Below are positions 5,144 to 23,877 of a DNA stretch of 31,779 bases, in pieces. A program made the translations under genes and the position numbers. This DNA is from a virus, in the IMG/VR virus record IMGVR_UViG_3300032288_001369, positions 1 to 31,779 of that record; one strand, written 5' to 3'. Below the pieces are notes generated by a model. It was not told where the DNA came from. It saw only the letters and a list, made by a program, of their open reading frames with translations, and made no database searches. Position 1 is the first letter of the stretch. The number at the start of each line of letters is the position of its first letter.

Positions 5144-8100
5144 TGCAGAACGAAGTACAACTAATAGTTAGGTCAGGCGTGATTTCGCCTACAATGACAT
5201 TCACTGACATATATACTCAAGCAGGCAGTCCTTCGGATTATTTTGAATCAGGTGCATTGCCATTAGCTGTAAATTATCCGAATGGCAGCAAGGTTGAGTT
5301 CTATAATAATAAGAATGCAAGTGTTGAGTTTACCACGTATGTAGTAAGTACGGACGATATCAACGGACGGGTGTACATCAATCCACCATTTGTACTGGCA
5401 CCGGACCAAAATGATGGCATCGACATTTATGTCTACGCATTCATTGGAACAAATACTTTCCTTGACCTATACCCGAACGAATCCATCTCGCTTTCCTATC
5501 AGTTCACGGACTTAAATAACTTTACGCAGATAGGCACATTCTCGCGTGACTTCAGGATTCCTGCAACGAAGCGAAATGTCGAAGCACTTGGACCGCTTTA
5601 CGATTACAACTTTGTTGACGATGTTCTTTCCTTCAGTCGCAAGTATGAAGCGGAGTTGAGGGTTGACACTATACCAATCAGTCGCGGTTACTTGCGCATA
5701 ATGGCAGCATACAAGCAGCAGGATTACTTGAGTGATTTTCAAGTGGCATTCTATTCACAAGCACCGAACTTCGTCAAAGAGATAGGTGAAAAGAAGCTCG
5801 CGGATATTACCGACCTGACAACAAAGAATGAGAACGTGGTGCTACCGAATGTAACGGTGCAAAACAGTTTCAGGATATGGGGATTGATTGACCGAGCGAC
5901 TGGTGGTTTAGCGTTTAGCCAACAAGGTGAAATCAACACACGCAAAATCAATGACATTGCAGGCATTCCACTTTATGCAGGGGATTTGACTCCATGCGTT
6001 CGGGCAGATTATTTGCTTACGGAAATATTCAAGGATGCTGGATATGAACTCGATGCCAGCAATCTATTGACCATCATACAAGATTACTATGTTCCGTGGT
6101 GCAATACTGAACGCTTAATCTTTGCCCAAAGTGAGCAAGATTATGCGCTACGTGTGAGAAATAATAATGTGTTGAGTGTCACCGGAATTGCAAACTACAC
6201 GACGTTCCCTTTTGACGTTGAGAATTTTGATTCGGTTAATGCGTTTGACCCATCAACTCAAATCTATACTGCACAAAGTCCTGCATACTATCAATTCAGA
6301 ATAAGGACAACCGTTAGTAGTGTGTTCAATATGTACGTCGCATTTCGCGCACGCATCACCGATTTATCTTCATTCACTACTGATGTAGTCATCGGTTCAT
6401 TTTATTCAGGTGATGGTACATACAATTTGGTTTCTTCACCTTTTTTCATGGCTCCGGGTTATACAATGGAAGTTCAATACTTGCATTACCCGGTAAGTTT
6501 TGGTGGGTCAGGCACATCAACTTTAACCTTCGATGCGGACCAAACTTTTTTGGAACTTCAAGCAATCACGTTATTGTCAAATGCTGATATTGTTTATCAG
6601 TTCAATGCACCGGATGTAAAGCAAATTGATTACGTTTCTGACATCATCAAGATGCACAATCTTGCCATTGTGCCTGACTTGAATATTGAAAACAAGCTGA
6701 AGTTAGAACCGATGCAGACCTTTATTGGTAGCGGTGCGACACTTGACTGGACAAAGAAACTTGATATTTCAAAAGATATTGTCATCAAAGGGACTGATGA
6801 CCTGCGCAAAACAAAATTGACGTTCACTTATTCCGCAGGACAAGACACTTACTCAAAATTGTTTGTTGACCAAGGCAGGATATACGGAGACTACCAACCT
6901 GAACCATACACAACTACAGTCACTCAAATACCCAGTTCGTTTGCGACTGGTGAAACATCGGTGAAGCTCGTTGCTCAATCCACTCCTGCCACACAAGTCA
7001 ATGGCACGAATGTTATATGTCCACGTTTTTGGACTCAAAGCGGTAGCGAACCACCAAAGTTCGCAGCACCAGGACTGCGCTTTTTGTATTATAGCGAGAA
7101 TGCAGACATTTACATTTATGATGAGGTGAGTGGCTTCGGTGTGACTCAATCTGTACCAACGCTCACGCACTATTCAAACACAAGCGGATTCAATCCTGAC
7201 TACAACCATGAGGATTTGAACTGGGCACCGGAAACACCTTTGCACGATTACACTGCGAATCCGTTTGACAACTTGTTTACACTTTACTGGCGCGATTATT
7301 TGGACACGATTTATTCGGATGATGCGCGAGTTCTTGAAGCGAATTTCGCGCTTGACAACACCGACATCCTATCTCTGAACTTTGGAGATTTTGTGTTTGT
7401 GAAAGATGCTTACTGGCGAGTGCTTGAGTTGAGTGATTACAAGATGGGTCAATTTGAAAGTACGAGAGTGAAATTGCTGAAGATGAATCCGGGACAAGCT
7501 GCACCACCACGATGCGACTTGAAACCTGACTCGGTGAATCCTGATGGCTCGGTGAACTTTTTGAATTTGGCAGGCAATCCGGTGAGTGCTTCAGAGACAT
7601 GTTGCCGAGCGTTCAACTATACATGGAGTCAAAACACGAATCTTTGTTTCGCACGTCCAAGCGATAGACCTTCAGTAGGTAAACCCAACAATGACATAAC
7701 TGGTCGCGGTGAAATAGCAGGAATAAACACGATTTCTGCCGGGTCGGATAACATCAATACAACGGTTGCTTTGGATGCTGGCAGTACATCATTCTCAATC
7801 TATGCAGGCAATCAAATAAAAAACACCGGAGAAAACAATAACACCATCGCGGTCGGTGATGTGATAGAACTTAAGGGAGATCATCGTGGCGCAGCGATGT
7901 TCGGAAAAGCCGTTGAGAAATACGTTCCGGGTTTTGCCGTTGGTGGCGGTTATCCGCTTGATGACACTACTTACAAAAGTGGAGCGCAGCAGGCAGGATT
8001 GACAATTCTATCCGGGCAAGCAAGTTTGGTCGCAAGTCCTGCGGCTATTCCGTTAACTCTTGAGGGTATTGCAGCGAAGTATGTGGAACTGGAGAACGAC

Positions 8101-21009: not shown

Positions 21010-21060
21010 TGGTTTGTTTTTTGTTTGTTTCGCTTATCGATGAGTTGTAGGCAATGCGCC

Positions 21061-21321
21061 CTAAGAAAACTCTTTGCCACAAATTTTGCATCGTAACATA
21101 TTTGAACCTATGTACTCCCTTTTGTCTCTCGGATGGGCGCACTGTTCGCTTCGCCCTACAACATCGGCTATACGCAATTTTTTAAAAAGGGCTTCTGCTC
21201 CGTTTAAAAATTGTTCTATTGCATATTCTCCCTCGTAGGCAGCATCATACATACTTTCTGCTTCTTTGCGTAACTCACGCATTATAGCACTTTTATTTAC
21301 CTCTGTCTTTAGCTTTATCAT
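21061..21321 (-). CDS. Unknown protein with C-terminal zinc knuckle (86 aa)
   Basis: 86 residues (MIKLKTEVNKSAIMRELRKE). An N-terminal helical region (about 1-55) precedes a small Cys/His cluster: C-x-H near 61-63 and NMLRCKICGKEF near 74-85, a likely zinc ribbon. It lies just downstream of the methyltransferase cassette in the leftward direction. Confidence 0.55.
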   Translation of the reverse strand: MIKLKTEVNKSAIMRELRKEAESMYDAAYEGEYAIEQFLNGAEALFKKLRIADVVGRSEQCAHPRDKREYIGSNMLRCKICGKEFS

Positions 21322-21359
21322 ATCTAATCTTTTTAAAAAAATTCGTATAGCCGTTTACC

Positions 21360-22297
21360 GTTATAAGCAAGTGCTACATTTCGTTTCCAAAGAGAGTTCC
21401 TGCTTGTAAATATTTTTCTTTTCTTTTTTCTTCCCACGCTTTTTTTATTCGTTCTTCAATAATTTCACAGTATTCAAAAGATATTTCACTGCCTATCCAA
21501 TTACGGTTATTTAAGATGCTCATTTTAGCGGTTGTTCCGCTTCCCATAAAAGGGTCATAAACTAAATCATTTTCATTGCTCCAAGTTATAATTTGGTCTA
21601 AACATAACTGTTCTGGAAACATTGCAGGATGTTCAAATGCTATCTTATCAGCAATATGACCACCAATAGAGTAACTAAATATATTTATTGCTTTCTTTAA
21701 TTCATTTGCTTTTCTAATGTTAGTTTTCATACTGCCATCTTTTTGCCTATATTTTCCGCTTTCAATTTTAACCCTTGCTTTTTCTACCATTATTGGATTA
21801 AATGTTTTTGGCTTACCCTTACTTAATACAAAAATATACTCAAACACATTATCATATCTTTTCGCATTTATTGGTTTGTAGTTTAGTTTGTGATATATAT
21901 TTGTATCAACATTAAATCCAATCTCCTTAAAGTAAATAGATTGCTTGAAAGATGTTAATGTTTCACATCCATCAATTGTAGCATCTCCAACAACCCAAAC
22001 CACAACACCACCTTGTTTTGTTACTCTGAATAATTCTTTGGCAATATCTTCAAATGGAAATGAATACCCCTTGTAATCTCTTAAATTATCGTAAGGTGGA
22101 CTTGTTACCGTTAAATCCACAAAGCAATCAGGCATCTTTGCCATTGTTTCTAAATTGCTTTCATTATAATTCTTATTTATCTCAATCATATTTTTTTAAT
22201 TTTTCAAATTAACATTTGCCATCTCACAAAAAAGAAAAGAAAAAGTGTTCATCTTTCAAATCAAGTTCTGTGCTATAATACCGCACCAGCTTATAAC
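21360..22297. mobile_element. Methyltransferase cassette bounded by inverted repeats
   Basis: GTTATAAGCAAGTGC at 21360-21374 and GCACCAGCTTATAAC at 22283-22297 are inverted copies of one 15-bp sequence (13 of 15 paired, the core 9 exact). They enclose one gene, a DNA methyltransferase, which is visibly AT-richer than its surroundings (a sampled 60-base stretch is 28% GC against about 50% in another early gene). The layout suggests a single-gene cassette inserted as a unit. No transposase or recombinase is encoded in it. Confidence 0.5.
21374..22189 (-). CDS. DNA methyltransferase, amino-methylating (TSPPY type)
   Basis: 271 residues. The catalytic motif IV is TSPPY (29-33), near the N-terminus, and the SAM-binding motif I is DPFMGSGTT (212-220), near the C-terminus. 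This is the beta-type order. TSPPY is commonest in N4-cytosine enzymes but also occurs in N6-adenine enzymes. A target-recognition region lies between (about 75-195). No restriction endonuclease is adjacent, so it is an orphan enzyme, most likely protecting phage DNA against host restriction. AT-rich base composition and flanking repeats suggest recent acquisition. Confidence 0.85.
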   Translation of the reverse strand: MIEINKNYNESNLETMAKMPDCFVDLTVTSPPYDNLRDYKGYSFPFEDIAKELFRVTKQGGVVVWVVGDATIDGCETLTSFKQSIYFKEIGFNVDTNIYHKLNYKPINAKRYDNVFEYIFVLSKGKPKTFNPIMVEKARVKIESGKYRQKDGSMKTNIRKANELKKAINIFSYSIGGHIADKIAFEHPAMFPEQLCLDQIITWSNENDLVYDPFMGSGTTAKMSILNNRNWIGSEISFEYCEIIEERIKKAWEEKRKEKYLQAGTLFGNEM

Positions 22298-22368
22298 AGC
22301 GTGTATAAAAAATGGCGGGTTCAGTTTTATATTCAACATTAATTTTTCAAATCAAGTGTAGTGCTGTA
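22254..22368. repeat. Imperfect 24-bp direct repeats
   Basis: TTTCAAATCAAGTTCTGTGC (22254 onward) recurs as TTTCAAATCAAGTGTAGTGC (22345 onward), 91 bases apart, with similarity continuing a few bases further. They lie in the gene-free stretch upstream of the methyltransferase and are interleaved with the long inverted repeat at 22299-22410. Confidence 0.6.
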
Positions 22369-22420
22369 TTGAAAGTTTCGGTTTCAAATTCCGCCACTTC
22401 TTATACACGCAAAACGTTAT
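22291..22420. repeat. Long inverted repeat, attC-like hairpin or origin-like element
   Basis: GCGTGTATAAAAAATGGCGG (22299-22318) is inverted at 22391-22410 (CCGCCACTTCTTATACACGC), 18 of 20 bases paired across a 72-base loop. Outside the arms, ATAAC (left) and GTTAT (right) continue the symmetry, so the folded single strand begins with AAC and ends with GTT, as integron attC sites do. It directly abuts the stop of the gene at 22417-22605, the usual attC position. The arms also contain TTATACACG, 8 of 9 matches to a DnaA box. No integron integrase is present. Confidence 0.6.
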
Positions 22421-22605
22421 GATTCATTGATTATCTTCTTCAGGTACACCGCAAGGTCAAGTGCTTCTTCGTATGCGTGCTGAAGCCATTCTTTTGTGGT
22501 TAGGTCTTTGCGGTCAACTGTCGTGCCGTACTTACTCAATCCACGTTCCTCACGGACTTTCAGTTCAGCAATGACCAGTTGAAGGATTGTGCTGGGTTGC
22601 TTCAT
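22417..22605 (-). CDS. Small MazG-like protein
   Basis: 62 residues. The block GLSKYGTTVDRKDLTTKEWL followed by QHAYEEALDLAVYLKK matches small MazG-like/nucleotide pyrophosphohydrolase-type phage proteins: the E-E-x-x-D helix is the metal-binding face. At 62 residues it is minimal, a single helical hairpin probably working as a dimer or tetramer. It overlaps the upstream gene by 4 bases. Confidence 0.65.
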   Translation of the reverse strand: MKQPSTILQLVIAELKVREERGLSKYGTTVDRKDLTTKEWLQHAYEEALDLAVYLKKIINES

Positions 22606-23252: not shown

Positions 23253-23877
23253 TGTCGTTTGTTTTTGTGGGTTTATTATTATTCATCCAATTTCGTGCAG
23301 TTGCATGCCAGTCCTTCATGGAATTTCTACCGACTTTCCAACCGTTGCTTGTGTAATAGTCAAAAAACTTTTGTGCTTCAAGAACAACCTTTGACTGTTG
23401 CCACTTGTTGCCAGCTTGAAAATTAAGTTCACTCATGTAATTCAAAACATCTATTGGTTCAGGTTTTTTGAACTTTCCACTTTCAACTTTAATTACATTT
23501 CTATTTTCATTTTCATTTTCATTTTCCATATGTTGAACATATGATGAAGATATGTTATTTGGAATATTTGGTTTACAAGTATTGATTTTCTTACGATTGT
23601 TGCGCCTACTCTCCGCATATGCAGCACGCTTTTTTACTTCTTCCAGCAATCTTTCATTCGCAAAGTTGCCATCGTCTTGTAATTTGAACTTGCTTTTGAT
23701 TGCGTTATGAATGTCATGTGATGAACATATCTTAATCATATGTTTTTCACTTAATGTTCCTTTTGATGCCTGATGACATAGGCAGCGGATGTAAGCACCG
23801 ACTTCTTCATTACTGAAGTCATCAGTACCTACGAGGAAATCTTGATAGTAAAATAAAAATGCTGGGTCTTTAGCCAT
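23188..23877 (-). CDS. Replication initiator-like protein (DUF1376/DnaD-like arrangement)
   Basis: 229 residues. The N-terminus (AFLFYYQDFLVGTDDFSNEE, then VGAYIRCLCHQ) is typical of DUF1376-like winged-helix replication proteins of phages. A low-complexity linker NENENENRN (encoded by TTTTCA repeats) separates it from a C-terminal domain with AQKFFDYYTSNGWKVGRNSM, KDWHATARNWM, a block common to phage and plasmid initiators. It probably binds the phage origin and recruits the host helicase. It is preceded by a structured leader with its own tiny ORF. Confidence 0.7.
   Translation of the reverse strand: MAKDPAFLFYYQDFLVGTDDFSNEEVGAYIRCLCHQASKGTLSEKHMIKICSSHDIHNAIKSKFKLQDDGNFANERLLEEVKKRAAYAESRRNNRKKINTCKPNIPNNISSSYVQHMENENENENRNVIKVESGKFKKPEPIDVLNYMSELNFQAGNKWQQSKVVLEAQKFFDYYTSNGWKVGRNSMKDWHATARNWMNNNKPTKTNDNEQRVSEIEYRRANDPNYFKL
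23504..23526. repeat. TTTTCA microsatellite inside the initiator gene
   Basis: TTTTCA is repeated three times plus TTTTC, encoding the NENENENRN linker on the leftward strand. Units are 6 bases, so gain or loss of a unit keeps the frame and only changes linker length. Confidence 0.85.

Follow-up and report, generated by a model that had tools for sequence, protein, structure and literature searches.

A two-cassette, integrase-less array of probable integron type in a Bacteroidota phage contig, and related phage arrays beside a Xer/IntI-like recombinase

In textbook attC sites of integrons, the R box follows the consensus GTTRRRY and spacers of about 5-6 nt lie on both sides. Vibrio super-integrons contain many near-identical attC repeats which are common to cassettes with unrelated genes, and it is established that phages become mosaics through recombination at linkers. 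Integrons are described as rare in Bacteroidota in the available text of PMC9024848, and the available part of the IntegronFinder 2.0 paper gives one complete Bacteroidetes integron, in Salinibacter ruber, with only In0 elements before it. Integron cassettes with methyltransferases in phages have already been published (Qi 2023, PMC9892861). As far as the available text shows, the phage integron cassettes and CALINs of Qi et al. resemble the locus described here in being one-gene cassette arrays with attC hairpins and N6_N4_Mtase cargo in virulent phages, Polaribacter phage P12002L included, and their carriage is ascribed to host integrons or illegitimate events. Unlike the present data, that text contains no phage-linked non-IntI recombinase, adjoining attI-like site, rule of reversed orientation, or shuffling among near-identical isolates. 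A literature search which subscription journals and preprints mostly fell outside gave no report of attC arrays associated with a non-IntI recombinase, whether in Bacteroidota or in their phages. What looks new in the data below is the putative non-IntI recombinase, the reversal of gene orientation, and shuffling that is exact to the nucleotide.

The window, i.e., the whole stretch of DNA analyzed, is a 31,779-base IMG/VR virus record, in which the genes on the minus strand encode, among others, the large terminase subunit and an exonuclease of YqaJ type. The sequence GTTATAAGCNNGTGC is found at 21360-21374 (+) and 22283-22297 (-), with zero further exact copies in the window. The two arms pair at 13 of 15 positions, are 908 nt apart, and lie directly outside one AT-rich N6_N4 methyltransferase gene, which is the sole gene between them. 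This is exactly where the original prediction had placed them, and its observation is confirmed, as is its statement that no transposase is present; its interpretation is partly supported. Taken alone, the 15-nt repeat is within chance, as the pattern with up to three mismatches gave 6 matches against 7.5 expected in the window and the pair ranked 14th among inverted pairs within 1.7 kb. Its significance derives from the stems and attC-like sites that surround it, which the original prediction did not mention.

Both inverted repeats are core boxes (G^TT and AAC) that belong to a pair of minus-strand attC hairpins of integron type (Table 1), and stems of 20 and 25 nt adjoin the repeats. Folded hairpins of attC type with AAC ... 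GTT cores are thus found at the cassette joints of the window, and the 13 of 15 paired bases are those between the start and end cores of one and the same cassette. On the minus strand, attC-A reads TAAC-GTTTT-GCGTGTATAAGAAGTGGCGG ... CCGCCATTTTTTATACACGC-T-GTTATAAGC and attC-B reads GCTTATAAC-GGTAAA-CGGCTATACG ... CGTATAGCCG-AT-GTTGTAGGGCG. The R' boxes (GTTATAA and GTTGTAG) deviate from the canonical R box, and the spacers are lopsided compared with textbook sites, with 5-6 nt on one side and 1-2 nt on the other. The sites scored 32.4 (attC-A) and 31.0 (attC-B) with our site detector, and the window holds no other site scoring at least 17; across 10 dinucleotide-shuffled versions of the window, all scores stayed below 19, and sites of at least 17 occurred at 0.2 per window. 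The detector was designed for these sites, so its scores depend on the model, from which the pattern-based and control tests are exempt. Folded as single-stranded DNA, attC-A had a z-score of -3.66, and none of 200 shuffles was as stable on either strand. An Rfam scan gave a single match, to an iron response element, which was under the gathering score and far from the array region.

Table 1. Features of the cassette array and its borders in the window (all coordinates refer to the whole stretch)
Feature	Position	Strand	Remarks
62-aa phage gene directly upstream of the array	22417-22605	-	PHROG families of unknown function
Left fixed slot border			Stop TAA of the 62-aa gene is part of the upstream core TAAC; also in L260
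attC-A	22289-22419	-	R'' TAAC 22419-22416, spacer GTTTT, L'' 22410-22391 / L' 22318-22299, spacer T, R' GTTATAAGC from 22297
Mobile unit 1, attC body plus methyltransferase cassette (predicted)	21361-22416	-	Cut points G^TT on the plus strand, deduced from core positions and junctions in relatives
Cassette start (R'), repeat 1	22283-22297	-	GTTATAAGCTGGTGC
Cassette leader (5' scaffold)	22190-22297	-	Conserved; common to cassettes with different genes
N6/N4 DNA methyltransferase, 271 aa	21374-22189	-	PF01555, E 9e-37; PHROG 67
Cassette end (R''), repeat 2	21360-21374	-	GCACTTGCTTATAAC
attC-B	21154-21363	-	R'' TAAC 21363-21360, spacer GGTAAA, L'' 21353-21329 / L' 21189-21165, spacer AT, R' GTTGTAGGGCG from 21162
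Mobile unit 2, attC-B body plus small cassette	21045-21360	-	Own core pair GTTGTAGG / CCTACAAC
86-aa ORF of cassette 2	21061-21321	-	No Pfam or PHROG match
Right fixed slot border	21010-21046	-	AAC/TCATCGATAAGCGAAACAAAC; array of L260 closed by the same TAAC/TCATCAATAAGCGAAACAAAC

The array consists of two cassettes, the N6/N4 DNA methyltransferase cassette with its attC and a small cassette, which a third core, GCCTACAAC, ends. The original prediction of a single gene therefore missed one of the cassettes, for which a separate core pair, GTTGTAGG(G)C/GCCTACAAC, is present, and the interval 21360-22297 proposed as the unit is too small, as the mobile unit includes the attC body. The "terminal inverted repeats" are real, but they represent cassette-specific attC core boxes and not transposon-like ends. 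The match of the window methyltransferase to PF01555 is well above the cut-off (127.5 bits vs 26.7), and its last ~25 codons are part of a conserved 3' scaffold. The 86-aa ORF of the small cassette starts inside the attC-B loop and reads through L' and R'; two ORFs of a related contig, L260 (3615-3824 and 4810-5064), do the same. In some cassettes the site therefore encodes the N-terminus of the protein. With two attC sites and no recombinase gene among the annotated neighbors of the array in this incomplete record, the locus has the composition of a CALIN.

Two further inverted repeats were seen in the window. A perfect 17-nt inverted tract, TTTTTCTTTTCTTTTTT, occupies 21413-21429 and 22228-22244 in the methyltransferase cassette, in each case exactly 53 nt from the nearer cassette end. 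The other is a 21-nt inverted repeat (95%) at 23536-23556 / 23724-23744, inside a primosomal-protein-like coding region.

The array occupies a slot between a 62-aa and a 90-aa gene in a minus-strand phage operon, and this slot was compared among relatives after exclusion from the searches of two records (L001 and L002) which are the window itself. In L053, whose terminase is 100% identical at the protein level and whose slot flanks show 95-97% nucleotide identity, the slot is empty, with the 62-aa and 90-aa genes joined directly (GAATCATAAAACAAACCAATG) and ~20 nt of the right border also missing. L260, with flanks 97.6% and 99.3% identical, opens with TCATAAC/GTTTT and closes with TAAC/TCATCAATAAGCGAAACAAAC (slashes mark the junctions) as the window does, and in between carries three other cassettes encoding a 69-aa ORF, a D12-type methyltransferase (PF02086), and an 84-aa ORF. 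This D12 methyltransferase, which differs from that of the window, is flanked by GTTATAAGCTGG and CTTGCTTATAAC, and is also given as lying between GTTATAAGC and GCTTATAAC. Among more distant relatives, L069 has another single-gene cassette, between GTTATCGGC and GCCGATAAC, and L056 has no array in the slot. The slot of L262 contains no attC-like site, and L263 stops short of the slot and is uninformative. Upon cassette exchange between the window slot and L260, the junction lies at the G^TT core, and no target-site duplication was seen at the slot between the window and its relatives. The comparison with relatives that the original prediction had called for thus bears out a captured one-gene cassette, absent from L053, and an exchange slot with two constant borders around three different cassettes in L260 and a third kind of cassette in L069. 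Diverged borders, which it had named as evidence to the contrary, were not what we found, as many contigs have the same conserved 5' leader and 3' end.

An 18-mer from the 5' arm of attC-A was found in 48 IMG/VR stretches. In 32 of them the inverse arm also occurs, no more than 300 nt away and always followed by TGTTA, and the genes on both sides of the 18-mer sites vary from locus to locus. In the GTDB collection it was found in only 5 stretches, near the random expectation by a rough base count, and two of them (L182 and L185) have a detector hairpin at that place. By these counts, this particular site type occurs far more often in virus contigs than among species-representative genomes. The site family is present in dozens of IMG/VR contigs and in isolated phages, where the best matches were 19 records, all of them Flavobacterium phages of the 2020 Baltic "Moomin" set; the site detector also found the same kind of sites in P12002L. 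The present sites would resemble the repeats of the Vibrio super-integron in being common to cassettes with unrelated genes, and unlike them are spread over phage contigs, with the gene orientation reversed. A very short version of the site, a 45-nt hairpin with the same arms (GCGTGTATAAAATCGTTTTAATGTTTTATACACGC), occurs in L153, L161, L163, L173, and L180.

The complementarity of cassette ends was assessed by comparing the start of each cassette with its own end, requiring at least 8 of 9 matching bases, with the other side of its own attC as control. Matching ends were found in 82 of 104 cassettes from IMG/VR loci (control, 10 of 104), in 26 of 35 from recombinase-bearing contigs (control, 4), and in 27 of 33 from chromosomal regions (control, 3).

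A search of 42 records (36 virus records, 3 bacterial genomes, and 3 phage records) with the integron-integrase model gave matches in 11 of the 36 virus records, all in two pieces with model positions ~180-240 unmatched and none above the cut-off; all 14 control genomes match the model too, as Xer proteins do. Nine of the 11 virus records were fetched, G034 and G035 being omitted as the same kind of locus as G033. In all nine contigs, the gene next to the last cassette encodes a Xer/IntI-like tyrosine recombinase in the strand orientation of that cassette, whose own end core lies 36-64 nt before the recombinase start, which in L245 is the start of the model match and not a called start codon. 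The junction is attI-like in eight of the nine, where the core is followed by TA and an A/T run like TATATATA (TAAC-TA-TATATATA). Arrays that end in an att site with an adjoining integrase are thus a feature of the relatives and not of the window.

These phage recombinases have 265-290 aa and share with IntI (TIGR02249) their position next to the array and the conserved R-K-H-R-H-Y residues. Unlike IntI, they score 140-173 bits against the curated cut-off of 265, lack the stretch at ~180-240 of the model, and form a separate clade. The nearest NCBIfam model for all seven recombinases scanned was the XerA-type NF040815 ("site-specific tyrosine recombinase/integron integrase"), which they match over the full length; they differ from it in scoring below its cut-off (165-206 bits vs 220) and in being tied to attC arrays. 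Their PDB neighbors include XerA (5hxy) and a XerC-like protein (4a8e). In a tree of 45 rows, they fall outside the XerC/D rows (100/100) and outside 12 IntI rows (100/100) and are intermixed with chromosomal relatives, the tree being unrooted with many weak inner branches.

In Bacteroidota, the phylum of the L182 metagenome-assembled genome, 175 of 296 genomes match the recombinase profile at 1e-40, weaker Xer matches included. We extended 20 of 30 returned chromosomal recombinase loci, namely best-scoring hits with enough contig, which are no random sample. Sites lie within 6 kb of the recombinase in 15 of these 20 regions, with 56 sites in total, compared with 1 site in 15 control regions from the same genomes. 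Among ORFs of at least 60 aa, phage genes are on the site strand (97:1 in IMG/VR loci and 33:1, 25:0, and 4:0 in further phage sets), while chromosomal genes are on the opposite strand in 30 of 31 cases. The recombinase is at the same side of the array in phages and chromosomes, so that phage genes face the recombinase and chromosomal genes face away from it; the chromosomal loci L302 and L308 are exceptions with the recombinase on the phage-like strand. Six of ten chromosomal cargo proteins scanned had no Pfam match, and the others include a GmrSD restriction endonuclease and an AlbA/Schlafen protein. One chromosomal array of this site family, in L310, contains both a GmrSD-type restriction endonuclease and an AlbA/Schlafen protein (711-2093 and 6356-8098).

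The idea that the phylum lacks IntI proved wrong, as 84 of the 296 genomes have an IntI over the NCBIfam cut-off. At the loci inspected (L341-L352), these common IntI genes mostly have no attC-like sites near them. IntI could be relevant to the window if its cassettes were classical ones from a host integron, mobilized by canonical IntI, which would make the array a plain CALIN. The frequency of IntI in the phylum would fit this, as would the activity of IntI1 on 5 of 6 phage attC sites in the available text of Qi et al. (PMC9892861), one of them from P12002L, which by the detector has sites of this family. We consider it unlikely, since 9 of 12 regions around IntI genes contain no such sites and the other three hold 5 in all, whereas the regions of the Xer-like enzyme are site-rich, and since the recombinases that do adjoin arrays match the IntI model in two pieces, far below its cut-off, and fall outside the IntI clade.

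Cassette shuffling was assessed in the first 10 kb of 15 of the 46 listed Moomin records, some of the 46 being RefSeq duplicates. At a detector score of 13.5, the 15 phages contain 150 cassettes of 27 types, and own ends match in 141 of 150; at a score of 17, they match in only 16 of 28, because missed sites fuse cassettes. Close relatives differ in cassette order and content through single cassettes gained, lost, or reordered, and the break points in near-identical phages are at TAAC/G. For example, the arrays of mumin6-1 and mumin6-4, which belong to one species, differ by one block (1236 vs 730 nt), and mumin6-4 lacks a 429-nt gene present in mumin6-1, while the cassette before type C9 is C2 in some phages and C5 in other ones. 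When an upstream cassette common to several phages has different successors, identity stops 1-6 nt beyond AAC in 32 of 39 comparisons; when the downstream cassette is constant and its predecessors differ, just 3-7 nt before the body are common in 17 of 18. Most of the other eight comparisons involve blocks in which a site was missed or variant sequences of a single cassette. The attC body thus moves together with the gene on its 3' side, which is the behavior predicted for G^TT cleavage on the opposite strand, the same core at which the window slot and L260 diverge.

These junctions also bear on whether the units are morons, i.e., gene-plus-terminator modules whose terminator hairpins serve as linkers for homologous or illegitimate recombination with no dedicated recombinase. 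The hairpins do sit between genes, no recombinase was recognized with the integron-integrase model in P12002L or in the two Moomin genomes searched, and illegitimate or off-target homologous recombination at phage attC is also raised in the available text of Qi et al. (PMC9892861). Morons are nevertheless improbable, as the break points fall within a few nucleotides of AAC though the adjacent attC bodies are otherwise little alike, the two ends of a cassette are complementary to one another, and a recombinase stands at the array end in all nine contigs, next to an attI-like junction that is conserved in eight of them. A non-autonomous transposon or MITE-like element could account for inverted repeats at both ends, the inner 17-nt tract, and the missing transposase, but it is very improbable, as the repeat varies by cassette across the 27 types where a transposon would have an identical one in all copies, the slot shows no target-site duplication, and neighbors abut at shared cores.

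With a probability of about 0.87, we interpret the window feature as part of an integron-type system of Bacteroidota phages, in which it would represent an array of two cassettes without an integrase. The integron-type reading is based on the sites, the self-complementary ends, the slot occupancy, the shuffling with its break points, the adjacency of recombinase and attI-like site, and the gene orientation, all of which are directly observed. The lopsided spacers and the apparent presence of the recombinase in only 11 of 36 virus records weigh against it, as does its absence from P12002L and the two Moomin genomes searched.

According to this integron-type model, each cassette would be one gene plus an attC-like hairpin. 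In the excised circle, the cassette start (GTTANNNGC) and end (GCNNNTAAC) would form the outer arms of one hairpin, which would be why they are reverse complementary. The chemistry suggested by the cores and junctions is that a tyrosine recombinase acting on these sites would join cassettes at the core, with a cut at G^TT (top strand AA^C), whereby single genes would be inserted, deleted, or moved within the fixed slot. Since no recombinase neighbors the window array, the enzyme would have to act there in trans, supplied by the host or a co-infecting phage. Related phages would use their own Xer/IntI-like enzyme, encoded ~50 nt from the last core at the attI-like site. The reversal of phage genes relative to attC, as compared with host chromosomes, puts an attC 5' of each gene and has all of the genes read with the phage operon. 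The likely benefit would be rapid swapping of DNA-modification enzymes (N6/N4 and D12 methyltransferases and Mom) against host restriction.

Phage cargo is dominated by DNA modification. Five of ten phage proteins scanned are N6_N4 methyltransferases, one of them in a fused helicase-methylase; in L244, the proportion is four of five scanned cassette proteins, and each Moomin array has several methyltransferases. Nilsson et al. (PMC7077304), in whose main text "integron" and "cassette" are absent, linked a difference in plating by 3-4 orders of magnitude to one methyltransferase having been lost. The methyltransferase cassette C5 is present in the LMO9 phages mumin9-3, filifjonk9-1, sniff9-1, and snork9-1 and absent from lillamy9-1 and morran9-1 and also from stinky9-1 and hattifnatt9-1, and we infer that C5 is the methyltransferase of Table S13 in that paper (PMC7077304). 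It is plausible that the window methyltransferase protects against restriction, which the published plating data on related cassette-bearing phages fit.

Cassettes with the leader and 3' end of the window cassette carry differing genes, namely the window methyltransferase type, other N6_N4 methyltransferases, Mom, and a class I tRNA synthetase, each of which ends in frame in a common short tail (...EEKRKEKDLQAGTLFGNEM). The gene body is thus replaceable with the ends retained, for which the simplest guess would be that the conserved ends undergo homologous recombination. The idea that cargo is swapped only as whole cassettes was too narrow, as in some cassettes a different gene stands between unchanged ends. 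The shared leader and 3' tail (window 22190-22297 and 21374-21460) around different genes were seen in L050, L169, L020, L046, L178, L182, L193, and L225. A scan with the full leader pattern gave 4 stretches, and one with a shorter 3' pattern gave 45, many without the scaffold.

We lean slightly toward a broader interpretation in which Bacteroidota phages own a distinct integron lineage with a Xer-like non-IntI integrase, its own attI, and reversed cassettes. Their hosts would carry the same attC family in the opposite orientation, restriction genes included, and phage and host would trade genes, modification versus restriction. If so, integron-type arrays of Bacteroidota would accompany an integrase which searches that require IntI would miss. 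Since Flavobacterium phage isolates with such arrays exist together with their living hosts, the recombinase could be tested jointly with host restriction and cassette content. Phages would then possess a dedicated and reversible means of exchanging DNA-modification genes one at a time, like the bacterial cassette exchange for antibiotic resistance.
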